A stretch of DNA of 62,335 nucleotides from Cytophagales bacterium (GTDB lineage Bacteria; Bacteroidota; Bacteroidia; Cytophagales; Thermoflexibacteraceae). Position 1 is the stretch's first letter. Every line of letters begins with the position of its first letter. Both the position numbers and the translations under genes were made by a program. The notes beneath the pieces were generated by a model. It was not told where the DNA came from and made no database searches. It worked only from the letters and a program-made list of their open reading frames with translations. The stretch spans positions 1 through 62,335 of the forward strand of contig CANGYA010000002.1 in NCBI GenBank assembly GCA_947457925.1, in the 5' to 3' direction. Below, piece by piece: positions 12,634 through 24,747 of this stretch.

Positions 12634-14025
12634 ATGAAGTTTAACATTTTACTATTGTTATTACTTTTTATTTCGTACTTTAAGTTATGTGCCCAAGTGT
12701 CATCGGAAACACAGTTTTCGGTCATACGAATAAAGGGTAAAATCTTTAATATCAGCCAAAGTAATAAAGAAATTAGTCGCGGCGATAAAATTAAAGCCAC
12801 CGACCAGCTTCGTTTTCTCACCAAAGACAGTAAAGTAAGAGTAATAGCCCCTCGTCATGGTACTTTCGATATAGGTTTGGAACAGACCAACACAGCGAAA
12901 GAATCTGAATTGATGGCGTTTGTAAAAAATGTACTATTGCCACTGCCAAATACCAATTCTCTTTCTACAAGGGCAGTAGAGTTAGACGCAGTGCAGGATT
13001 TACAGGAGCATTTTGGGGAAAAATTTGCGATTATTGGTGATACTTACAAGATGCGTATCAATACCGACAAGTACCCTCTAAGTGCTAACCAATACTTCAT
13101 TTATCAGTACACTTATAATAATACAAAGGTAACTAAGAAGATAGGTATAAGTAAAGATACTCTTATTTTTGACAAGAAGAAACTGTACATCGTAGGTGCA
13201 TCGCCCATCTCACCTACCGATATAGCAGAGGTGAGCATAGCCTATATGCGAGATGCACAAGCCACAAGTTTTGAGGCTATCAGCACTCTAAAAGTAGATT
13301 TTATAGAACTGAATCACCTACAAGATGACTTCAATACGTTGCGGGAGTTTTACCTTAGCAAAGAAGTTAGTCAAGAACAGGCTTTTGATGAAAGTTTGGC
13401 GTATGTGTCAAGTGCCTATGGCAAAGTTGATATAAAGTATTTTAAAGATTGGTACGAGAACCAAATGCGTATGCCCTTGCCCAACACACAAAATACACCA
13501 CCAGCTAACCCCAATACATCAATACAACCCGTTACAGAAACAAAACCCGTTACAGAAACAAAACAACCAAGTATAGATAACAGCAAATCTACGAATGATT
13601 TATACAGTTCGCCTCACGTCATTGGTATGATAGCTGCCCCAGATGCGGTGCAGGCGTATGTGAATGGCAACTATGATTTATGCTTAAAATTAGTAGAAAA
13701 ATACATCAGCACCCAACCATTAGACATGGCAAAGGCGTATGCTCTGAAAGGCTTGGCTTTGTATAAACAAGGTAAGCCGACAATGGCGTTTGTGGATTTG
13801 AACAATTCAGAGTTTTATGCTAAAAATGATGCGGATTTTGTGGCAAGTTTTTATGCCCAAGCTGCCTATTATGCTTTGCAAAATAAAGAACCTATTGCTA
13901 TTCGCTATTTGAGATTAGCCATAGAAAAAGGCTTTAATGACAAAAGTAAACTTACGGCAGACGTGGATTTTGAGAATATCAAAAAATCGGCTGCCTTTAA
14001 TGACCTTTTGAGTAAAATTAAATAA
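12634..14025 (+). CDS. Exported TPR-containing protein, unknown function (caspase-block gene 1)
   Basis: 463 aa with a signal peptide (about residues 1-20, ending LCAQ). The N-terminal 100 residues (FSVIRIKGKIFNISQSNKEISRGDKIKATDQLRF...KVRVIAPRHGTFDI) look like an FecR-like beta sandwich: a value set, then a surface, state or threshold. The middle is not recognised. A proline/threonine-rich linker with a repeated PVTETK segment (about 285-310) leads to a C-terminal TPR-like helical region (about 335-463, with YVNGNYDLCLKLVEKYI and AKAYALKGLALYKQGKPTMAFVDLNNSE). First of five co-oriented genes for exported or membrane proteins ending with a caspase-family protein. Function not known. Confidence 0.7.
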   Translation: MKFNILLLLLLFISYFKLCAQVSSETQFSVIRIKGKIFNISQSNKEISRGDKIKATDQLRFLTKDSKVRVIAPRHGTFDIGLEQTNTAKESELMAFVKNVLLPLPNTNSLSTRAVELDAVQDLQEHFGEKFAIIGDTYKMRINTDKYPLSANQYFIYQYTYNNTKVTKKIGISKDTLIFDKKKLYIVGASPISPTDIAEVSIAYMRDAQATSFEAISTLKVDFIELNHLQDDFNTLREFYLSKEVSQEQAFDESLAYVSSAYGKVDIKYFKDWYENQMRMPLPNTQNTPPANPNTSIQPVTETKPVTETKQPSIDNSKSTNDLYSSPHVIGMIAAPDAVQAYVNGNYDLCLKLVEKYISTQPLDMAKAYALKGLALYKQGKPTMAFVDLNNSEFYAKNDADFVASFYAQAAYYALQNKEPIAIRYLRLAIEKGFNDKSKLTADVDFENIKKSAAFNDLLSKIK

Positions 14026-14182
14026 GCATAAACACTAAGTGCTAATGCACAATGATTAATTAGTAAATTTTTAATTAAAAATTATTTTAAGTTGTTGATA
14101 ATTAAGTTGTTGATAAAATTTTTATTCTAAAAAAATAATCAAAACTAATTCTTGGCAACTACTTATCTTCTCATTTTTTAGT

Positions 14183-15406
14183 ATGAAAAATCAAATACTA
14201 TTATTGGTAGCTGCGACATTGTTAGGTGCTTGTTCGGCAAACGACGAAGAAAAAGTGTCCAAAAGTAATACTTTAGACAGTCTTTTGATAGTAGCTAATA
14301 TTGAAAACCAAAAACGGAATGAAACGGACTCTTTGATGAATTTATTGGGTGTGGCAATGGATTCTATGAATCATCTGCAAAAAGAGATTCAAGAAGTACG
14401 CCAACGCAAAGGTTCTATTCGGGGGTCTTCGGGCATGACCACCAAGGTTTCTCAGTTGGAGCAGCTTTTGCAACAAAGTATGTCTAAAATTACACAGTTG
14501 CAAGACAAATTACGAGATGCTGAGATGCTCAATCAACAAGCCAATTCCCAAATACAAATGTTAGGCACGCAGCTCAATAAATTGAATGAACTGAACCAAC
14601 AACAAAGTGGGGATAATTCTCAAATAGCAGCCTTACAAACGCAAGTAGAAAGGCTCAAAGAAATGCAACGCCAAAATATAGAAAAAGACCAACAAATAAA
14701 GGCTTTAATCAGCCAGATGGAAAAACTAAAAATCAATAACACACAAAGTAGTGCTGCGATTGGTGGTAGTAATAAAGAAGTAGAGGAACTTAAAGCATTG
14801 TTGGAAACCCAAAAAGACATTATGCGTAAGCAAATGGCAACCTACCAGCAAGAAATAGCCAATTTGAAACAACAAGTCAATACTACAGCTGCCGACAAAG
14901 GACTAACCTTGCCTACATCGGGAACTAAAGAGGTAAGCAATGCGGGTTTGTTGCGAGTAATAGACCAGCTCAAAGAGCAATTATTGATTAAAGAGGAAGA
15001 AATAGTAGCTTTGCGAGCCGAACTCAAAGGCGTAAAAGAAGTTTTAGTAGTTGTTAATCAAGAAAGGGAGGCTTTGGCTCAAACAGTAGTACAGAAAGAG
15101 CAAGAACTAAAAACAACCCAAGAGGTACTTAGCCAACAACAACAACAAGCCGAAACCCTGAAAAAGCAAATGAAAATAGTAGGCGATATTCGCAATCTAT
15201 TGGCAGAGGGTGATAGTGAAATAGCTAAAGGCGATGAACTTAAAAAAGGTTTGGGCAAATTGTTTAAGAAAAATGAGGCGAATGAACACTATCAAAAAGC
15301 CTTAGCTTTGTATAGACGTGCTGCGGATTTGGCATACCAACAAACGGAAATTCCCGAGAAAACCATCAGAGAAAAAATTAAACAAGCAGACGAAAAACTT
15401 AAATAG
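14183..15406 (+). CDS. Coiled-coil lipoprotein, unknown function (caspase-block gene 2)
   Basis: 407 aa. The N terminus MKNQILLLVAATLLGACSAN carries a lipobox (LGAC), so it should be lipid-anchored in the periplasm or outer membrane. From about residue 45 to 340 it is almost entirely heptad-like and rich in Gln, Leu, Glu and Lys, with long coiled-coil stretches (for example KITQLQDKLRDAEMLNQQ). The last 60 residues (GDELKKGLGKLFKKNEANEHYQKALALYRRAADLAYQQ) look like a short TPR or helical hairpin. No catalytic motif. It lies 157 bp after gene 1 and 116 bp before the CHASE2 gene. Confidence 0.75.
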   Translation: MKNQILLLVAATLLGACSANDEEKVSKSNTLDSLLIVANIENQKRNETDSLMNLLGVAMDSMNHLQKEIQEVRQRKGSIRGSSGMTTKVSQLEQLLQQSMSKITQLQDKLRDAEMLNQQANSQIQMLGTQLNKLNELNQQQSGDNSQIAALQTQVERLKEMQRQNIEKDQQIKALISQMEKLKINNTQSSAAIGGSNKEVEELKALLETQKDIMRKQMATYQQEIANLKQQVNTTAADKGLTLPTSGTKEVSNAGLLRVIDQLKEQLLIKEEEIVALRAELKGVKEVLVVVNQEREALAQTVVQKEQELKTTQEVLSQQQQQAETLKKQMKIVGDIRNLLAEGDSEIAKGDELKKGLGKLFKKNEANEHYQKALALYRRAADLAYQQTEIPEKTIREKIKQADEKLK

Positions 15407-15424
15407 TTTGAGCAGCATTTTTCG

Positions 15425-15460
15425 GAGATTAACCCCTAATTTTGATTAGTCGTTAATCTC
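15425..15460 (+). terminator. Hairpin between coiled-coil lipoprotein and CHASE2 genes
   Basis: GAGATTAAC (15425-15433) pairs with GTTAATCTC (15452-15460), with an inner CTAAT/ATTAG pair. There is no strong T tract, so it may only attenuate or protect the upstream message. Confidence 0.4.
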
Positions 15461-15522
15461 TGCCTTCTAACAATGACCTCGACAATGGCTCAATACTCCA
15501 TGAAAAGCCTCTACATACCAAT

Positions 15523-16779
15523 ATGACAAACTTCTCTTTATTTTATCAATTTTTTAATAAAAAAAGGTTTATTCTCTTTGCTTTCCTCAATTCTTTGTTG
15601 ATGACAGCATTTACTTTTATTTGGTTAGCTTCTCCGTTTTGGTCAGGAGATGAAATTCACCTTATACAGTACACCTCTGCCTTCAAAAGATTACTCTTTA
15701 CCAAAGAGATGCCTTCTCCAGACCGTTTCGTATTTGTAGATATAGCGTGGGAGAAAGACTTGATAGACAAGATAGACAATGACTTTCCGATTGGTAAGCA
15801 GAGTATTGTTAATAGACAATCTTTATATGAGTTTTTCAGAGAATTAGATGAAAATAATGTAAAACCAAGTTTTGTTATTTGTGATGTTTCTTTTGTAGAG
15901 GCTTCTGATAACACTACAGATAGCTTATTTTGTGGTGTATTGAAAAAATTTCCTAACCTATTAGTAGCTGCAGAAAAGGGTGATAATGGCATCATTTTAC
16001 CAATTTGCAAAGATGTTCCTTACGGCATCACGCACTATGAAACCATCGAGGAAACAAAGTTTATCAAATTTCCATTAGTAGTAGATTCTGTTCTGTCCTT
16101 GCCACTCAAAATGTATATGCAACTACACAAGAAATCATACGAACATGGACGTTTTTTTAACTATTTGGGAGGCAAACCCATCATTAGTAACCCCATCATA
16201 GACTTACGCATACGCAATTACCACCTCCAAAAAGGAGAAAATTTACAAGCAGATAGCAGTAATACTATAGGCTTGGCTAAAGCAGCAGACGACTATGTGA
16301 AGTACCAAAAAATGTATATGTCTGATGCCTTAGTAACTTTTGAGTCTGTGGTAGATGCAGAAGAAATACAAAAATTATTTAATAATAAAATTATTGTGAT
16401 TGGAGATTTTGAAGATAGAGATATAAAAGAAACTATTTATGGCATGACCCCAGGCGCATTGATTCTATTGAATGTATTTCTTAGTGTAGAGGCAGGCGAC
16501 AATACCATCTCTATCTGGTTTTTGTTGTTTCTTGTGATAGGGTATTGGTTAATTTCTTTGAAATGGTTTATCAAAACAGACATTGTGGAAAGTTTCTTGA
16601 CGAGGTTCTTTCGCACCAAAAGTAGTTTTTTATTTGGCTTGGTTTCTTACTTGGGCTTGCTGATTCTAATGTCCGTTATTTCTTATTATTTATTTAGTAT
16701 TCATCTTACTATTTTACTGTTAGCCTTGTACCTCAACTTAGCAGGAAATATTATTAGTCGTAGGGTGCATGGGGTGTAA
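15523..16779 (+). CDS. CHASE2-domain membrane protein without a kinase domain (caspase-block gene 3)
   Basis: 418 aa. An N-terminal membrane helix (about 16-36) is followed by a large extracytoplasmic CHASE2-type sensor domain (about 45-320): RFVFVDIAWEKDLID early, a central domain with NVKPSFVICDVSFVE and FPNLLVAAEK, and the end NNKIIVIGDFEDRDIKETIYGMTPGALILLNVFLS, which is characteristic of CHASE2. Two further hydrophobic stretches (about 325-345 and 370-412, perhaps two helices) close the protein. CHASE2 normally feeds a kinase, cyclase or similar output; here there is no cytoplasmic output domain, so the signal must pass to a partner. The neighbouring caspase-family gene is the natural candidate. 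Confidence 0.82.
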   Translation: MTNFSLFYQFFNKKRFILFAFLNSLLMTAFTFIWLASPFWSGDEIHLIQYTSAFKRLLFTKEMPSPDRFVFVDIAWEKDLIDKIDNDFPIGKQSIVNRQSLYEFFRELDENNVKPSFVICDVSFVEASDNTTDSLFCGVLKKFPNLLVAAEKGDNGIILPICKDVPYGITHYETIEETKFIKFPLVVDSVLSLPLKMYMQLHKKSYEHGRFFNYLGGKPIISNPIIDLRIRNYHLQKGENLQADSSNTIGLAKAADDYVKYQKMYMSDALVTFESVVDAEEIQKLFNNKIIVIGDFEDRDIKETIYGMTPGALILLNVFLSVEAGDNTISIWFLLFLVIGYWLISLKWFIKTDIVESFLTRFFRTKSSFLFGLVSYLGLLILMSVISYYLFSIHLTILLLALYLNLAGNIISRRVHGV

Positions 16780-16871
16780 TATTGGCTTTATTTACGTAGC
16801 ACAATCTACTTGTACACATACTTTTGTATTTATCTTTCTTTAACCCTATTTATCTTAACTATTTATTGATT

Positions 16872-17738
16872 ATGAAAAAAAATATGATTAATTTTAGCTG
16901 TTCTATCTACTTTTTAGTGTTATTTTTTTTAGCCCCAATATATTCAGTATTGGCTCAAGACATCGTATTGCCTGCGGAAGACACCTATAAGTATTACAAC
17001 GCTGTTTTTGTGAGTAAAGATACCACTATGGAGATTTCTTACTATATACAAGCTGGTAAGAAGTTAAAAAACTTTGCACACCTCTATAATGTAGAATTAT
17101 ACTATTCGAAGGACGGTGGGCAAACTTTTAGAGGACCTATGAAGGCAGTAAAAGGCGATGTAGGCATGGGCGTAAAAGCCACTTTAGAGAAAACATTAAA
17201 GATTATCAAATGGAAGCCTTTGGAAGATGATGACGATTTTAGTGGTCAAAACATTGTATTAGAAGTACGCCCTACCATGTATATTCCCGCCAATGCAAAA
17301 CACAACAAGGGACCTCAATTTGGGGCATTAAATATTGTGATGCCGGGTTTGGGAGATTATTTTGTAAGACCGGGTTCTGGTAGAGCTTTATTGCCTATCT
17401 TTCTTGGTGCATTAATAGGCGGTGGTGTCTATGCAAATAAAATGGCGAATGACTCTTATAATAGTTACCTCACAGCTACGGAGGCATCACAAATGAACAA
17501 GTCGTATGACGAGGCAAAAATTTATGACATGGTTTCCAAAGGATTAGTTTATACGGCTATTGGCATTTGGGGAATTGATGTGATAACAGGTGTGATTAAA
17601 GGTTTTAGGAATCAAGGTTTTAGAGCAAAATATGAGAACCAAACTCTCAAAAAATCTACTGCGTACACCCCAAAACTGGAGTTATTTGGTGGTTATGCAG
17701 GCACAGCAGGTCAGCTGGGTGTAAGGCTCAAATTCTAA
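16872..17738 (+). CDS. Secreted or outer-membrane protein, unknown function (caspase-block gene 4)
   Basis: 288 aa from ATG at 16872; an upstream in-frame ATG at 16824 would place 16 residues before the Lys-rich signal peptide start MKKNMINF, so the later start is preferred. Signal peptide ends at VLAQ. The N-terminal half has a beta-rich domain with NVELYYSKDGGQTFRGPMKAVKGDVG and IKWKPLEDDDDF, the pattern often seen in Bacteroidota proteins near PEGA- or Ig-like domains. The second half contains two hydrophobic segments (about 165-185 and 225-245; GALNIVMPGLGDYFV...LLPIFLGALIGGGVYA) and ends in beta strands (LELFGGYAG...LGVRLKF), a typical outer-membrane C-terminal end. No known family name. 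Confidence 0.7.
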   Translation: MKKNMINFSCSIYFLVLFFLAPIYSVLAQDIVLPAEDTYKYYNAVFVSKDTTMEISYYIQAGKKLKNFAHLYNVELYYSKDGGQTFRGPMKAVKGDVGMGVKATLEKTLKIIKWKPLEDDDDFSGQNIVLEVRPTMYIPANAKHNKGPQFGALNIVMPGLGDYFVRPGSGRALLPIFLGALIGGGVYANKMANDSYNSYLTATEASQMNKSYDEAKIYDMVSKGLVYTAIGIWGIDVITGVIKGFRNQGFRAKYENQTLKKSTAYTPKLELFGGYAGTAGQLGVRLKF

Positions 17739-18081
17739 CCCTTTTTTGTAAAACTAAAAAAGCCACCTACTAAGATTTTGAAGGTCTAATCAAAAACCTT
17801 TCATCTGTTCAGTAGGTTTTCCGCATAAAAAATTACAAGTAATTTTTATGTAATAAAGATACATTTAACGTAAATTTTGGAACACAGACAACGCAGACCA
17901 CGCAGAGTTGCACGGATTGTTTTTTACTTATACAATTAAAATATAGCTTCAATACAATCCAAACTATGTTTTCTATGTGGTTGAAAAATTTTGATGCAGA
18001 AAACCTATCTGTCAGCCATGTTGGCTTTCTCTAATTTGATTGAAATAATTACATTTTTATTTTTCTAATCTTTGTTCAATT
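17739..18081. other. Intergenic region before the caspase-family gene
   Basis: Contains a weak inverted pair (ACCTACT at about 17765 and AGTAGGT at about 17811) that may end the upstream message. At about 17880 is CACAGACAACGCAGA, similar to the CACAGAT/ATCTGTG-type repeat found at 26236-26330. Only a poor promoter match (AATCTTTG) lies close to the 18082 start. No ORF. Confidence 0.5.
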
Positions 18082-19284
18082 ATGACTAAATTAAGTATTA
18101 TTTATATTATCTGTTGGTTATGTACTACTCTCCAGATTTATGCACAAGTAAAAGACGGAACAACCAAAGATGTCATGCGTAGTGATGTCATCAATATAAC
18201 GGGTTTTAAGGCTAAAGACAAAAAACCGCCTGTAATTACCCTATTGACCCCAAAATTGAACTATACTGGTGAAGTTTTGAGAGAGAACAAAGAAAATTTG
18301 CATATACTACTCTCTGTAACAGACAACGAAACCGTAGAAGAAGTAACAGTGAACAGTTATGTAGCCAAATCTACCACCAAAGATGTGTATGAAGTAACTA
18401 TACCTCTGAAAGTTGGTAGCAACCTTATCTGTGTGATAGCTAAAGATAAACTCCTCAATCAAAGTCAATTTGATTTCAGCGTCATTAGAGAAGTGCCTCA
18501 GCTCACCATAGCAAGTACAGACACCGAAGACTTGAACATAGACATAGACATTAGTGCAACTCAAAATAACACAAAGTATCATGCCTTGTTGATAGCTGTA
18601 GAAGACTACCAAAACTCAAGCATTAATAAGTTGGACAAACCTGTCAAAGATGCAGATAGTTTACGCAAGGTCTTGTGTAGCTACTATAATTTTGAAGAAA
18701 GTAATGTTACATTTTTAAAAAATCCTACTCGTGAGCAAATTGTCATTACGTTTGATGAATTGAGTAAAAAACTTACCAACAAAGACAATTTACTCATCTT
18801 CTATGCGGGGCATGGAATATGGGACGAGAAAATGAAAAAAGGCTATTGGCTGCCAGCAGATGCCCAAAAAGATAGCAGAGCCGGCTGGTTTTCTAACAGT
18901 GATTTACGTGATTATATTGGCGGGATTGGAACAAAGCATACACTACTTATTGCAGATGCTTGTTTCAGTGGGGGAATTTTCAAGACAAGAGATGCCTTTG
19001 AAAATGCCTCACCGTCTATGAAAGAGTTATACAAAATGTCCAGCCGAAAAGCTATGACAAGTGGAGCTTTAAAAACAGTACCCGACGAGAGTGTGTTCAT
19101 CAAGTACCTTTTGCGTAGATTAACAGATAACCAACAGGCATTTTTAACAGCCATAGATTTGTTTGGCTCTCTGAAAACTGCCGTTATGAATAACAGCCCC
19201 AACGGACAAGTCCCCATGTTTGGCGAAATCAAAGAAACGGGAGATGAAGGTGGAGATTTCATTTTTATTAAGAAAAGAAAATAA
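18082..19284 (+). CDS. Exported caspase-family (peptidase C14) protein (caspase-block gene 5)
   Basis: 400 aa. A signal peptide (ends YAQ, about residue 22) is followed by an Ig-like domain (about 50-140; PPVITLLTPKLNYTGEVL...CVIAKDKLLNQSQFDFSVIRE) and then a peptidase C14/caspase domain (about 165-395). The catalytic dyad is present: LIFYAGHG with His244 and LLIADACFSGG with Cys294. N-terminal caspase signatures ALLIAVEDYQ and DADSLRKVL are also there. Relatives prefer basic (Arg/Lys) P1 sites and are often called orthocaspases or metacaspase-like; the target here is unknown. The export signal puts the enzyme outside the cytoplasm. It follows the CHASE2 and lipoprotein genes in one direction, and an intended partner lipoprotein immediately downstream is broken. 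Confidence 0.9.
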   Translation: MTKLSIIYIICWLCTTLQIYAQVKDGTTKDVMRSDVINITGFKAKDKKPPVITLLTPKLNYTGEVLRENKENLHILLSVTDNETVEEVTVNSYVAKSTTKDVYEVTIPLKVGSNLICVIAKDKLLNQSQFDFSVIREVPQLTIASTDTEDLNIDIDISATQNNTKYHALLIAVEDYQNSSINKLDKPVKDADSLRKVLCSYYNFEESNVTFLKNPTREQIVITFDELSKKLTNKDNLLIFYAGHGIWDEKMKKGYWLPADAQKDSRAGWFSNSDLRDYIGGIGTKHTLLIADACFSGGIFKTRDAFENASPSMKELYKMSSRKAMTSGALKTVPDESVFIKYLLRRLTDNQQAFLTAIDLFGSLKTAVMNNSPNGQVPMFGEIKETGDEGGDFIFIKKRK

Positions 19285-19312
19285 GTAATAACCCTAAAAC
19301 AACTTTACCATC

Positions 19313-20207
19313 ATGATACAAAAAACATACATTTATTTATTTATCACTGCCTTTTTGTTTGCGTGTACGCCATTAGACGTAAAAAGAGTAGTCATTTTCA
19401 GAGATACGCCTGAAATCAATAGTATCCAAAACACTTCTGCCCAAGCCAATGTGTTGGTGTTAGACAAAGGTTAATTTGAGGTTGTAGAGCATGGTTTTGT
19501 CGTAGCTACTTATGCCATTGGCTTCCTTACAAAACTCCGTAAGCATCATTAAATTAGGAAAACCTAATGGTACGACACCCTTCTCTATAAGTTCTACCAT
19601 CAGCCTACCCAATGCTGGCACGAAATACTACCTAAGAGCATACATCAGCAATGCACAAGGAGCAACAGCCTACAGCAAAGAAGTAGCTTTTGAAACAAAA
19701 AAAGGTCCTACAATAGTTAGTTTTGCTCCTACGAGTACAAATATTAATGCAATTATTACGATAGAAGGTAGAGATTTTGGGAATAATCCTTTTGTTACTT
19801 TATCATCTCCAACTACAAATAATGTTGTACTCTCCCCTACGACCTTTACAAGCAGCAGATTTAACTTTGTTGTTCCAGAAGATTTGGTGGCAGGCAACTA
19901 TAGCATTACATTAAGTGACGGAATTAATACTACACAAGCAAGCAATCAACTTGCTGTAAATGCCACTGTTACGGAATACCCAACAACAGCAGCCCCAACT
20001 GAAAGTTGGTTTATACGAGGTACAGGCTTTGGGCGTAATTTAAGCCTGATTGATGTCAATATAGCCAATACAAAATTGGTCGTAAATTCGGTAAGTCCTA
20101 ATCTTATTGTTTGTACTCTACCCAACGCCACAGGAAGTTTTGTACCTTCAATTACTATCAATGGGCAAAGAGTAGCTGTAACACAAACTATCACACTAAG
20201 ACGATAA
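19313..20207 (+). pseudogene. IPT/TIG-domain lipoprotein, broken by a stop codon and a frameshift
   Basis: An ATG at 19313 opens a lipoprotein signal with lipobox-like FLFACTP, followed by about 35 residues ending at a TAA at 19472. The frame then continues (FEVVEHGFVVATYA), and after a +1 shift near 19500-19512 the rest is intact: ISLPNAGTKYYLRAYISNAQGATAYSKEVAFET completes a fibronectin-like domain, followed by two IPT/TIG domains (TIVSFAPTSTNINAIITIEGRDFG; then ESWFIRGTGFGRNLSLIDVNI). So this was one protein of about 297 aa. It lies 28 bp after the caspase-family gene, which suggests it was a surface-anchored partner. A sequencing error could explain the two defects and should be excluded. 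Confidence 0.75.
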
Positions 20208-20453: not shown

Positions 20454-20518
20454 GTACCACAGACTTTAGTCTGTGATTCTTTGATTATCAAGAGATTACA
20501 GACTAAAGTCTGTGGTAC
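20454..20518. repeat. Palindromic element with GACTTTAGTC core, 21-bp perfect arms
   Basis: Arms 20454-20474 and 20498-20518 (both contain GTACCACAGACTTTAG or its complement). The loop has GATTCTTTGATTATCAAGAG. The same element in the opposite orientation is at 46222-46300. Confidence 0.8.
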
Positions 20519-20580: not shown

Positions 20581-23500
20581 ATGCAAAAAATCTTAGCTAT
20601 TTACAAAAGACGGTTGGCAAACCTCAATACCAACAACAAAAGTTTGTTGCTATTGCGGTTAAATAGTCGGCAACACCTCGACTTACACACCTGCGATTTT
20701 ATCACACAACAGCCTTCTTTTGCCCTTATTTCGCAACTAATAGCTCGTAAAAAAAAGATTTTGCTTGCTGCCAACGTAGAAAGTAGAGATAAAAATAGCA
20801 ACCAAGTAGCCTACCAACTCCACCAAATCCGCAGAACCGACAACCTTTTATGGGAAGAAAGAGGGGCAAAAGACTTATTCATTGGTTATCCGTTTGTGGA
20901 AGGAAAACTGCAAGATGATACGCCTGTCCGTTGTCCACTTTTGTTGTTTTCGGTAGAGTTACTATTAGAAAACAATCAATGGTATTTGGTAAGAAAAGAA
21001 AATGGTACAATTCAATGGAACACAAATTTTCTCTTGGCTTATTCCCATTTTAACCAAGTAAATTTGCCTGATGAGTTGTTGGAACAAGACTTTGAGGATT
21101 TTAGCAAAGAAAGCAGAGTATTTTTAACAGAACTCTATAATTATCTGGAAAACAGTTACTTAGAACTTGACTTCAACGTAGAAAATTTTGAAGAAAAGTT
21201 AAAATATTTTACAGAACACAGCAAAACAGATTTTTTGCGTTGGACATCCACAGGAAAACTTAAACTACAAAACGAGGCTGTTTTGGGTATTTTTCCACAA
21301 TCCAATAGCTTTTTATTGCCCGACTATGAATATTTACAAAATAATCCTACTATTCCATTAACTTCTCCGTTTTGGCAAGAGTACGAGATTTCCTCAAAAA
21401 CCTCACCCTCTCAAAATGAAAAGGAGAGGTTTTATGGCAACTTTGACCTTAAAAGGTCAAAAAAAGCCTCTCTCCAAATGGAGAGGGGTTGGGGTGAGGT
21501 ACTTGCTACAGGCATTTACCCATACAGCATAGATGCCTCACAAGAACAAGTTTTACAGGCAATAGAACAAGGTAAATCTGTAGTAGTGCAAGGTCCCCCT
21601 GGGACAGGTAAGTCGCAGTTGATTTGTAATATTATTGCGAATGGTATAGCCACAGGGAAACGGATTTTGTTGGTGTGCCAAAAACGTGCAGCTTTAGATG
21701 TGGTCTATCAACGGTTAGCAGAACAAAATTTTTCGCCTTTTGTAGGCTTAGTCCATGATATTCAGTATGATAGACGTACCATTTACGAAAAACTGTTGGC
21801 ACACATAGAAAACATAGCCGAATACCAACAGTTAAATCAGGGTTTTGATAGTCTGTATGCACAAAACCGTTTTGATAGGTTGCAAGAGGAAATTACGCAG
21901 ATTTGTGAGCAACTGAACCACTACCGCAAAGCCCTATTCGATACTTCGCAGTTTGGTATAGCTGCCAAAGAACTATATGTAAGTACACAAGCACCCGCAA
22001 TAACATGGGAATATGAACAAAAAGAATTGATAGCTACCGTAGAAAAATATCAATTTCAGTACAATGATTTGCTCAGTTTTCAACAAAAAATAGATTTAAT
22101 TCAAAAAGTCTATTCACAAATATTACAAGCTGTTAGTAGCAAAAATACGTGGAAAAGTTTTGATTTTTGGGAGTTACGACTGCCCTTTGACACAGAAGAA
22201 ACAAGTTTAGTACATCATTTACAAAAAAATTTGACTAATTTATTAGAAAATAATCCTTTAAAAAATACTATTGATTTACAAAATCTTATTATTGCCAAAG
22301 AATTTGACGATTACCAAAGTTTTACAACTTTATTAGAAAAGCAACAAAGTATTGTAGAGTTATTAATTTTTTTTCAAAAAAATAACTACTTCTATTGGGC
22401 AAAATATTTACACAAACAAAAACCGCAAGAGAAAAAGCAAATAGCAGAGTACGAGAGTATTATTCAAAATTTTTTAGAGCAACCTATTGATTATGAATTA
22501 GTTGATAAAAAAGAAAACGGTGAAGATATAGCTACGATATTGACCACTTATGCCACTACCTACCAAAGTATAGGCTCAAAACTGCATTGGTTTTTTACGG
22601 CTAAACATAAAAAATTAGTTACACAACTTTTTGAAAAATATAAATTAACTAAGAATTATGAAAATACAAAGCTATTAATTACAAAAATAGTAAACGGCAG
22701 ACGGTTGAAACAAGCCATTCAAGCTATGCAAACTTTGTATGCAAGCTACGAAATAGAGTTGGGAGATTGGAATAAAATAGAAGAATTAGGGCATTATTTC
22801 AACAATTACTTAGCTGATTACCAACAAGTTAAAGAGTTTATTACAACAATTTTTCCTGAAAATTTTTGGTCAAAAAAAATAGACTTTTGGCAGTTTACGC
22901 CTATAAAAGTTGTGGCTGTATTACAAGAATTGCAAGAGGTTTTACACACTCAACAGCAATTACTCAACACTGCACAAGGCTATTTGAGTGAGGCACAAAT
23001 TACGTTGATTTGGAATAAAGATGTTGATAATGAAGCAATTAGCTTGTATTTAATAACGCACTTCTCTAATTTACGGGCAATAGATTTGCTCAAAAAAGAT
23101 TTTTCTTTGGCAGAAAAAAGTCTTTGGCAAGTCATTATTCAACAATCTTTTAGTGAATTAAGTAAGCATTTTCTAAGCCCCACCCCTCAAGAAACTCCCT
23201 CCCCTAAGGGGGAGGGCTGGGGTGGGGGCTTTTCAGCGAAAAACAATCAAAATATTAATTCACTTAGCCAGCATTTTGCCGAGCAAATTCGTTTGGCGTG
23301 GTTGTTTAGTTTAGAAAAACAGCAGCCTATTTTACGTACTTCTGCCCTGCAACTTTCGCAATGGGGCGAAATTTTGCAAAAAAATATTCAGGAACAACAA
23401 GAATGGTCGCAAGCCATTGTCTTACAAAAAGCAAGGGAACAGAGTTACAAAGATTTGATTTTCAATAGGTTAAATAACTTATTGACTTACAGAGAACTGA

Positions 23501-24747
23501 AGCACCAAGTAAGCAAAAAGAAGTTTGTGTTTCCTTTACGAAAACTTTTTCAGCACCATGCAGACGATATTTTTCGGTTGATGCCTTGTTGGTTGGCTTC
23601 TCCAGAAACGGTGTCTGCCTTGTTTCAAATGACGCAACTCTTTGATTGTGTGATATTTGACGAGGCTTCGCAGTGTTTTGCAGAAAGAGGTATTCCTGCC
23701 CTCCTGCGAGGCAAGCAAGTGGTCATAGCGGGGGACAGCCAACAGTTACCGCCATTAGACTTATACCGTTTCCGTTGGGAAGAAGAATATGACAAAAACG
23801 AGGAAACTAATGTAGCCTTAGAGGTCAATTCTTTGTTGGATTTAGGCGAACAATACCTGCCCACTTTGACAATAACAGGGCATTACCGCAGTCAATCTTT
23901 GGATTTGATAGACTTTTCTAACCAAGCATTTTACAAAGGAAAATTGCGGTTAATTCCTCATTTTCAGTATTTTAAAAATCAAACACCTGCCATTCATTAC
24001 CATAAAGTAAATGGCTATTGGGAAAAAAACACCAACCCCATAGAAGCCCTTGCCGTAGTAGATTTATTGCTGCAACTGTTGGCTACAGGCGAAGAAAGTA
24101 TTGGTATTATTACGTTTAATTTGCAACAACAAAATTTAATTTTAGATAGTATAGAGGAAAGAAACATTGCCTTGCCTGCCTCTGTTTTTGTCAAAAATCT
24201 TGAAAATGTGCAAGGCGATGAACGGAATATTATCATTTTTTCGGTTGCCTACTCCCCTACCCTATCAGGCAAAATGAACCGCCAATTTGGTTTATTAAGT
24301 TGGGAACAAGGCGAAAATAGGTTGAATGTGGCGGTTACAAGAGCCAAAAAATCCATTCATTTGCTTACAAGTATTTTTCCGCACCAACTCCACACCGAAG
24401 AATTGCAAAACAACGGCGTGCGGTACTTACAAGCCTATCTACAGTATGCTCTTGATGTGTCTTCGCAAAAGTACAAACCGACTTTGCCCACACCAACAAC
24501 GCAACGCCCAACGTGGTTTTTGAAGCAACAACTTTTGCAAGAACACCCCGAAAAAGAGGCTTTGCAGCCCTTATTGCCTTTTGCAGATTTTTATCACACC
24601 GACCAAACTTTGTGGTTTACAGATGACGATTTGTACTATAACTCATTGTCTGTTAAAGACTTTCACGCCTATTTGCCTCTGCAACTTCGTCAAAAAGGCT
24701 GGAAATTTCGGCAGTTTTGGAGTAGAGAATGGTGGTTGCGGGAGTAA
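20581..24747 (+). CDS. Superfamily 1 DNA/RNA helicase (AAA, DNA2/NAM7-like), 1388 aa
   Basis: Helicase motifs in order: Walker A GPPGTGKS (residues 338-345), KRILLVCQKRAALD (Ia), FDEASQ (motif II, near residue 1027), GDSQQLPP (III), GHYRSQS (IV), VQGDERNIIIFS (V) and NRLNVAVTRAKKSIHLL (VI). The first 330 residues resemble the DUF4011-type N-terminal domain seen in large bacterial NAM7/DNA2-like helicases. About 680 residues lie between motif Ia and motif II and are largely helical. Two palindromic DNA repeats are inserted in frame, encoding residues about 274-307, immediately before the Q motif, and about 865-884. These insertions do not break the frame, so the protein is probably expressed. 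Such helicases are often linked to defence or nucleic-acid metabolism; the role here is unknown. It stands alone. Confidence 0.9.
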   Translation: MQKILAIYKRRLANLNTNNKSLLLLRLNSRQHLDLHTCDFITQQPSFALISQLIARKKKILLAANVESRDKNSNQVAYQLHQIRRTDNLLWEERGAKDLFIGYPFVEGKLQDDTPVRCPLLLFSVELLLENNQWYLVRKENGTIQWNTNFLLAYSHFNQVNLPDELLEQDFEDFSKESRVFLTELYNYLENSYLELDFNVENFEEKLKYFTEHSKTDFLRWTSTGKLKLQNEAVLGIFPQSNSFLLPDYEYLQNNPTIPLTSPFWQEYEISSKTSPSQNEKERFYGNFDLKRSKKASLQMERGWGEVLATGIYPYSIDASQEQVLQAIEQGKSVVVQGPPGTGKSQLICNIIANGIATGKRILLVCQKRAALDVVYQRLAEQNFSPFVGLVHDIQYDRRTIYEKLLAHIENIAEYQQLNQGFDSLYAQNRFDRLQEEITQICEQLNHYRKALFDTSQFGIAAKELYVSTQAPAITWEYEQKELIATVEKYQFQYNDLLSFQQKIDLIQKVYSQILQAVSSKNTWKSFDFWELRLPFDTEETSLVHHLQKNLTNLLENNPLKNTIDLQNLIIAKEFDDYQSFTTLLEKQQSIVELLIFFQKNNYFYWAKYLHKQKPQEKKQIAEYESIIQNFLEQPIDYELVDKKENGEDIATILTTYATTYQSIGSKLHWFFTAKHKKLVTQLFEKYKLTKNYENTKLLITKIVNGRRLKQAIQAMQTLYASYEIELGDWNKIEELGHYFNNYLADYQQVKEFITTIFPENFWSKKIDFWQFTPIKVVAVLQELQEVLHTQQQLLNTAQGYLSEAQITLIWNKDVDNEAISLYLITHFSNLRAIDLLKKDFSLAEKSLWQVIIQQSFSELSKHFLSPTPQETPSPKGEGWGGGFSAKNNQNINSLSQHFAEQIRLAWLFSLEKQQPILRTSALQLSQWGEILQKNIQEQQEWSQAIVLQKAREQSYKDLIFNRLNNLLTYRELKHQVSKKKFVFPLRKLFQHHADDIFRLMPCWLASPETVSALFQMTQLFDCVIFDEASQCFAERGIPALLRGKQVVIAGDSQQLPPLDLYRFRWEEEYDKNEETNVALEVNSLLDLGEQYLPTLTITGHYRSQSLDLIDFSNQAFYKGKLRLIPHFQYFKNQTPAIHYHKVNGYWEKNTNPIEALAVVDLLLQLLATGEESIGIITFNLQQQNLILDSIEERNIALPASVFVKNLENVQGDERNIIIFSVAYSPTLSGKMNRQFGLLSWEQGENRLNVAVTRAKKSIHLLTSIFPHQLHTEELQNNGVRYLQAYLQYALDVSSQKYKPTLPTPTTQRPTWFLKQQLLQEHPEKEALQPLLPFADFYHTDQTLWFTDDDLYYNSLSVKDFHAYLPLQLRQKGWKFRQFWSREWWLRE
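21401..21499. repeat. Palindromic repeat inserted in frame in the helicase gene (1)
   Basis: 99 bp (33 codons) bounded by CCTCACCCTCTC and GGGTGAGG. Internal palindromes include GACCTTAAAAGGTC and TCTCCAAATGGAGA. The right part is nearly the reverse complement of the core at 49531-49570. Translated, it gives SLQMERGWGEV, a low-complexity insert unlike the surrounding helicase. Confidence 0.75.
23175..23232. repeat. Palindromic repeat inserted in frame in the helicase gene (2)
   Basis: About 58-60 bp with outer AAGCCCCACCCC and GGGGTGGGGGCTT and inner CTCCCTCCCC/GGGGGAGGG. Translated it reads SPTPQETPSPKGEGWGGG. It resembles the cores at 5451-5488 and 46757-46793. Confidence 0.75.

Follow-up and report, generated by a model that had tools for sequence, protein, structure and literature searches.

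Do the consecutive genes of an envelope locus in a Cytophagales genome form one pathway from stimulus to protease? The window (the whole stretch of DNA analysed here, 62,335 nucleotides of contig CANGYA010000002.1) carries five consecutive, co-oriented genes, A to E, all of them open reading frames, followed by a broken sixth, F (Table 1). A sequence-only reading had proposed that these five exported or membrane proteins make up a caspase module with a CHASE2 sensor, and the row itself, on the forward strand, is as it described. We find that the A-to-E row is two conserved blocks, A with C and D with E, joined beyond chance, and that the association of these blocks is real, recurrent and modular. 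To our knowledge, the roles of bacterial caspases are mostly open. A CHASE2 protein lacking an output domain that recurs beside an apparently exported caspase is a compact case in which to ask what the sensor receives and what the caspase cuts, and the pairing bears on whether caspase signalling can run in the bacterial envelope. The stimulus of the CHASE2 domain itself is called unknown in a 2016 paper (PMC5192318).

Table 1. Features of the locus, numbered from the first letter of the window
Feature	Position	Strand	Length and character
Gene A	12634..14025	+	463 aa
Gene B	14183..15406	+	407 aa, lipobox LGAC, coiled-coil-type sequence
Gene C	15523..16779	+	418 aa, CHASE2-type membrane protein without output domain
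Gene D	16872..17738	+	288 aa, hydrophobic N-terminus, looks to have Ig-like and DUF5683-like parts
Gene E	18082..19284	+	400 aa, caspase-family protease (predicted), signal-like N-terminus
Codon of catalytic His244 in gene E	18811..18813	+	from sequence; conserved in 26/26
Codon of catalytic Cys294 in gene E	18961..18963	+	from sequence; conserved in 26/26
Gene F	19313..20207	+	broken TIG lipoprotein

Gene C has three hydrophobic segments by hydropathy (residues 17-35, 328-346 and 368-386), and one more can be made out by eye at about 389-405. The protein terminates in RRVHGV with no output domain after the last transmembrane segment. This is the topology of CHASE2 receptors, with an N-terminal transmembrane segment, an ectodomain and three C-terminal transmembrane segments (the last by eye), and it upholds the description of gene C as an output-less CHASE2-type protein. 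The CHASE2 label rests on its relatives, because the window protein itself gives no Pfam match at E<=1, PF05226 included. Indeed, 18 of the 26 aligned family members match PF05226 (CHASE2) at E<=0.01, two of the 26 being proteins of another subfamily from the same genome, and relatives share 27-44% identity with the window protein. Further, two C-type proteins among the 52 loci considered below carry a guanylate cyclase domain after the last transmembrane position, one by Pfam (L058) and one by eye (L101), which supports the interpretation of gene C as a receptor. Elsewhere in the same genome, contig C172 holds a tandem pair of CHASE2 genes of another subfamily (L147, 203-2929, minus strand; PF05226 E 1.7e-22 and 3.2e-17), with a lipoprotein-like gene upstream and no gene E match on the contig.

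Gene A, which has a hydrophobic N-terminal segment by hydropathy, had been labelled a FecR-like/TPR protein, and only the second half of that label survives. Its C-terminus (residues 332-461) matches the NCBIfam family TPR_END_plus (E 1.5e-11), and its AlphaFold2 model (mean pLDDT 73.1, pTM 0.51) aligns with a TPR domain at Z 10.3 and rmsd 3.2 over 120 residues. This extension is missing from the relatives read, which are about 275-335 aa long. FecR was rejected on two profile tests, for which the comparison set lay outside the LysM-type FecR proteins of CHASE2 operons. There was no PF04773 match at E<=0.05 in the 18 rows scanned, two of which are not true relatives, and hhalign gave a probability of 0.5% against 30 FecR-domain stretches, at least one of them offset on a short contig flank, while the control between halves of the FecR set gave 100%. 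The rest of the model comprises a beta region at residues 27-81, Ig-like beta structure at 120-225 and helices to 277, and weak fold matches of the model suggest that the second of these is an Ig-like part. Foldseek listed no match to the model at E<=0.001. In second-look fold lists for A and D, matches were middling and Ig-like or helical, the TPR of A excepted, and FecR was absent from the rows. PDB sequence searches with genes A and C returned only rows at E 0.18-0.72, and a profile comparison of A with D found no kinship.

By its profile and catalytic dyad, gene E is a member of the Peptidase C14 caspases (PF00656, E 2.1e-18) and a predicted protease. The dyad said to be intact, His244 and Cys294, is indeed aligned in every family protein compared. 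The first 22 residues of gene E, ending in YAQ, resemble a signal peptide by eye and fall below the hydropathy threshold; a signal-like start is seen by eye in 25 of 26 family proteins, the exception being L058, whose start lies inside the frame under the ORF rule used. A Glucodextran_B-like stretch at residues 69-133 scores below the family cut-off, and a PDB sequence search found no match at E<=0.01. Against the EACC1-associated caspases (NF047832) gene E reaches 75.4 bits (E 4.2e-21) with a cut-off of 140, and it is therefore not filed among them.

Gene D has a hydrophobic N-terminal segment by hydropathy, and the label of an outer-membrane-type protein found no support. Its model (mean pLDDT 73.7) returned middling Ig-like and helical fold matches, none at E<=0.001 in the Foldseek list, and its own sequence scores 15.4 bits against DUF5683 (PF18935), below the curated cut-off of 26.7. 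Nine of the 12 proteins compared in its family have a DUF5683 match at E<=0.05 (best 7.8e-06). Gene D appears to consist of an Ig-like part followed by a DUF5683-like helical part. Gene B has a lipobox, in keeping with the lipoprotein it was taken for; among the 96 genomes searched it has matches at E<=1e-5 in three, its own included, and no relative beside C. Gene F is broken as described: a lipoprotein-like start at 19313 runs into a stop after 53 codons, and the TIG part follows in another frame at 19512-20207. This piece covers residues 70-298 of an intact relative at 33% identity and lacks the relative's Kelch part; an intact Kelch-bearing copy is present in a genome of the same family (L036).

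The intergenic gaps across A to E measure 157, 116, 92 and 343 bp, and the last contains a weak terminator-like site (18011-18025); both features count against a joined module, as do the solitary B and the broken F. Terminator-like sites in the window are no commoner than in shuffled sequence, and a Bacteroidota-type promoter pattern matched four times in the window against 7.8 by chance, never in the locus. Given the gaps and the terminator-like site, a single transcript across A to E is putative.

The conservation of the first block is apparent across 390 genomes of the order. Gene C was found in 48 of them (E<=1e-15) and gene A in 57 (E<=1e-6), with A in 43 of the 48 genomes that have C and in 14 of the 342 that do not (Fisher 3e-39), figures favoured by profiles that were built from loci where A and C adjoin. 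We examined 52 C loci from 45 genomes, having set aside three genomes with only distant matches; three distant CHASE2 loci (L109-L111, 120-135 bits) likewise lie outside this set. At 34 of the 52, a gene A on the same strand is no more than 6 kb away. Because of these loci and the co-occurrence across genomes, we regard A and C as a conserved unit. The remaining 18 loci have no gene A within 6 kb, which counts against a joined module. A further 21 named loci reduced to 16 after removal of five duplicates, of which 11 overlap with the 52 and five are new (L062, L068, L070, L072 and L080); A is present at all five, and a caspase at one (L068). In the window gene B is inserted between A and C. 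Gene A is also commonly found without C, a further point against the module, with two such copies in the same genome. Among 20 fetched loci with A and no C, 17 showed no gene E match in the stretches read. The other three (L181-L183) were chosen partly for a known nearby caspase; gene E directly precedes A in L182, and does so at a contig end in L181. At three loci without A (L046, 2487-5498; L074; L076, 6795-9806), the place directly upstream of C is taken by a TPR-like membrane protein some 1003 aa long, perhaps an alternative partner.

The second block recurs in the same way. Relatives of gene D occur in 49 of the 390 genomes (E<=1e-8). Of the 38 strongest D loci, 17 have a same-strand E-type caspase no more than 6 kb away, or 18 of 39 with L146, a locus kept out of the count as it was fetched in the knowledge that E is adjacent. 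The two are direct neighbours at four of the 17, and at seven they are separated by a gene of about 470-505 aa, in which Pfam recognises PKD in both examples tested (L050 and L112). A match to an F-like TIG lipoprotein lies near six of the 17 D-E loci and near 12 of the 39 D loci tabulated.

The two blocks meet more often than expected. Eight of the 52 C loci have a same-strand E-type caspase no more than 6 kb away, namely the window, L036, L050, L051, L058, L099, L100 and, weakly, L102, against about 0.4 expected (p 6e-9; this and the other p values of the analysis are made too small by the phylogenetic non-independence of the loci). The L102 caspase is a weak match (46 bits) 3 kb from C, and dropping it gives p 1.4e-7. 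The background density was taken as 298 Peptidase_C14 matches in 281 Mb. Since this is an undercount, with two matches against three in the window's own genome, twofold and fourfold densities were also checked, and p is 1.6e-4 at the fourfold density. A separate caspase search that scored three candidates per genome served for positions, not for counts. Outside the order, caspase matches were followed on four plasmids, two from Azospirillum and one each from Pseudoalteromonas and Runella; the stretches read there contain no A or C match, which counts against the module.

The form of the joining varies between genomes. A, C, D and E occur together at two of the 52 C loci, the window and the same-family L036, whose C proteins share 43% identity and group together with support on the C tree. 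In the window A-B-C comes first and D-E-F follows; in L036 the blocks are swapped, with D-F-E ahead of A-C. Two congeneric genomes (L050 and L100) have C between D and E, with one gene between D and C and without A, and the caspases joined to C in L051, L099 and L068 are longer and WD40-protein-like by eye. Co-occurrence beyond chance, the check that the sequence-only reading called for, is borne out, while a single fixed five-gene system is not: B has no counterpart beside C in the genomes searched, and the full set of A, C, D and E is confined to two loci. When the label of a nearby caspase (eight rows, with L068 included and L102 excluded) is mapped on a tree of 56 C proteins, six changes are needed, at least two of them forced by starred branches, and 20 of 500 label shuffles need as few (mean 7.6). 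The tree was a quick one and drew long-branch warnings on six rows, L058 and L051 among them; together with the shuffles this leaves the number of caspase-C origins unsure. Between A and C in L068 (6099-9980) there is a protein of 1293 aa, with stretches that by eye resemble TPR and WD40 repeats, which gives an E-type caspase match of 56 bits; the record is labelled Thermoplasmatota and may be a misbinned Bacteroidota contig. In L058 (5949-9623) a caspase, a CHASE2-guanylate cyclase and an FGE-sulfatase-domain protein stand in a row, the last with a weak D-like N-terminal match (25 bits).

Joining beyond chance and a swapped order are what would be expected if both blocks work together, and are not proof of it. 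Our main reading, to which we assign a probability of about 0.45, is an envelope module of two separable blocks, with A and C sensing some condition and then controlling the exported caspase E. Gene pairing and co-occurrence across genomes are observed for A and C; their physical partnership is inferred from these, with A as a putative secreted periplasmic protein that would work with the ectodomain of C, presumably in the inner membrane, as a sensor pair. Likewise, the pairing of D with E and the intact dyad are observed, and E is probably exported. The second block would be an effector cassette of D and E, frequently accompanied by a lipoprotein of TIG or PKD type like F, built around an exported and presumably active caspase-type cysteine protease. 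As C ends after its last transmembrane helix, the likeliest signal route is through periplasmic partners, and caspase E appears to be on the same side as the CHASE2 ectodomain and A. A sensed envelope state would change A-C and so license or restrain E, which would cleave an envelope substrate, with D and the lipoprotein holding or presenting E; signal flow from C to E, as well as the sensing, the contact and the substrate, is conjectural. That a conserved membrane sensor of two genes adjoins a conserved cassette with an exported caspase-like protease suggests, short of proof, a link between sensing and proteolysis outside the cytoplasm. We speculate, with rather more doubt, about the specific version of this pathway: a trans-envelope one, in which an output-less CHASE2 receptor and its MtxA-like partner gate an exported caspase, with both sensing and proteolysis outside the cytoplasm.

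A serious rival, which we consider quite possible, is that two independent envelope units simply lie side by side, A-C being a sensor with another output and D-E-F processing surface proteins, with no signal between them. Each pair also occurs alone, with no E-type caspase within 6 kb at 44 of the 52 C loci and no C within 6 kb at 13 of the 17 D-E loci, as such units would predict. Against this, the joining exceeds chance, and it extends to the longer WD40-like caspases and to the swapped order. That the locus is a decaying remnant of a module being lost is improbable: the stop and frame change in F and the lack of a C match in a genome of the same genus (G001) would fit, whereas genes A to E are open, and E keeps its dyad and about 54-55% identity to the same-family copy in L036. 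Slightly less likely still is a cell-death or anti-phage system with E as the killer. In its favour, the PADLOC model for caspases recognises gene E (E 3.9e-13), and a helicase-like defence candidate (PDC-S37, E 6.8e-124) begins 373 bp after F. Against it, E looks exported, its neighbours are envelope proteins, the rest of the PADLOC scan (six proteins) gave only weak coiled-coil or short matches at E 0.0012 or worse, and L036 has no helicase-sized ORF in the 16 kb read. The helicase-like protein, of 1388 aa, is encoded at 20581-24747 on the forward strand, after two stem-loop sites at 20458-20516.

The module of two separable blocks has partial precedents. FecR-CHASE2 operons, the pair of MtxA with a CHASE2 cyclase and caspase-CHASE2 fusions are already in print. 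In the BiofilmReg operon of Burkholderia, and in a related pair in P. aeruginosa, a LysM and FecR protein is encoded beside a CHASE2 histidine kinase, and most listed genomes also have a response regulator (PMC5192318). The shared element is a secreted-protein gene beside a CHASE2 membrane-protein gene; our locus differs in that it has a caspase close by and lacks both a FecR match and a kinase domain. Another parallel is MtxA of Magnetospirillum, a secreted protein with an Ig-like and then a TPR-like part, whose gene is followed by that of an adenylate-cyclase-like CHASE2 protein (PMC4439547; PDB 4z29). The model of gene A has a TPR part and, by weak fold matches, an Ig-like part, and its gene has a CHASE2 neighbour (at 34 of the 52 C loci), here without the output domain of the Magnetospirillum protein. 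In the fold list for gene A, 4z29 appears at Z 4.6 with rmsd 6.3 over 143 residues, tied with unrelated rows.

For the caspase side, a search of openly licensed literature found no description of an exported-caspase set with D. The published links between caspases and CHASE2 considered here lie within single proteins. Trichodesmium erythraeum has a caspase-CHASE2 fusion with an N-terminal caspase before the membrane part (PMC3501461 and PMC2853523), unlike the separate proteins seen here, of which the caspase seems to be exported to the face of the membrane where the CHASE2 ectodomain lies. The EACC2-caspase proteins have variable C-termini, CHASE2 among them, and are encoded beside TRADD-N genes (PMC8195603). 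They resemble our locus in bringing a caspase and CHASE2 into one system, and differ in doing so within one protein that carries an EACC2 domain, whereas gene E has a different N-terminal part.
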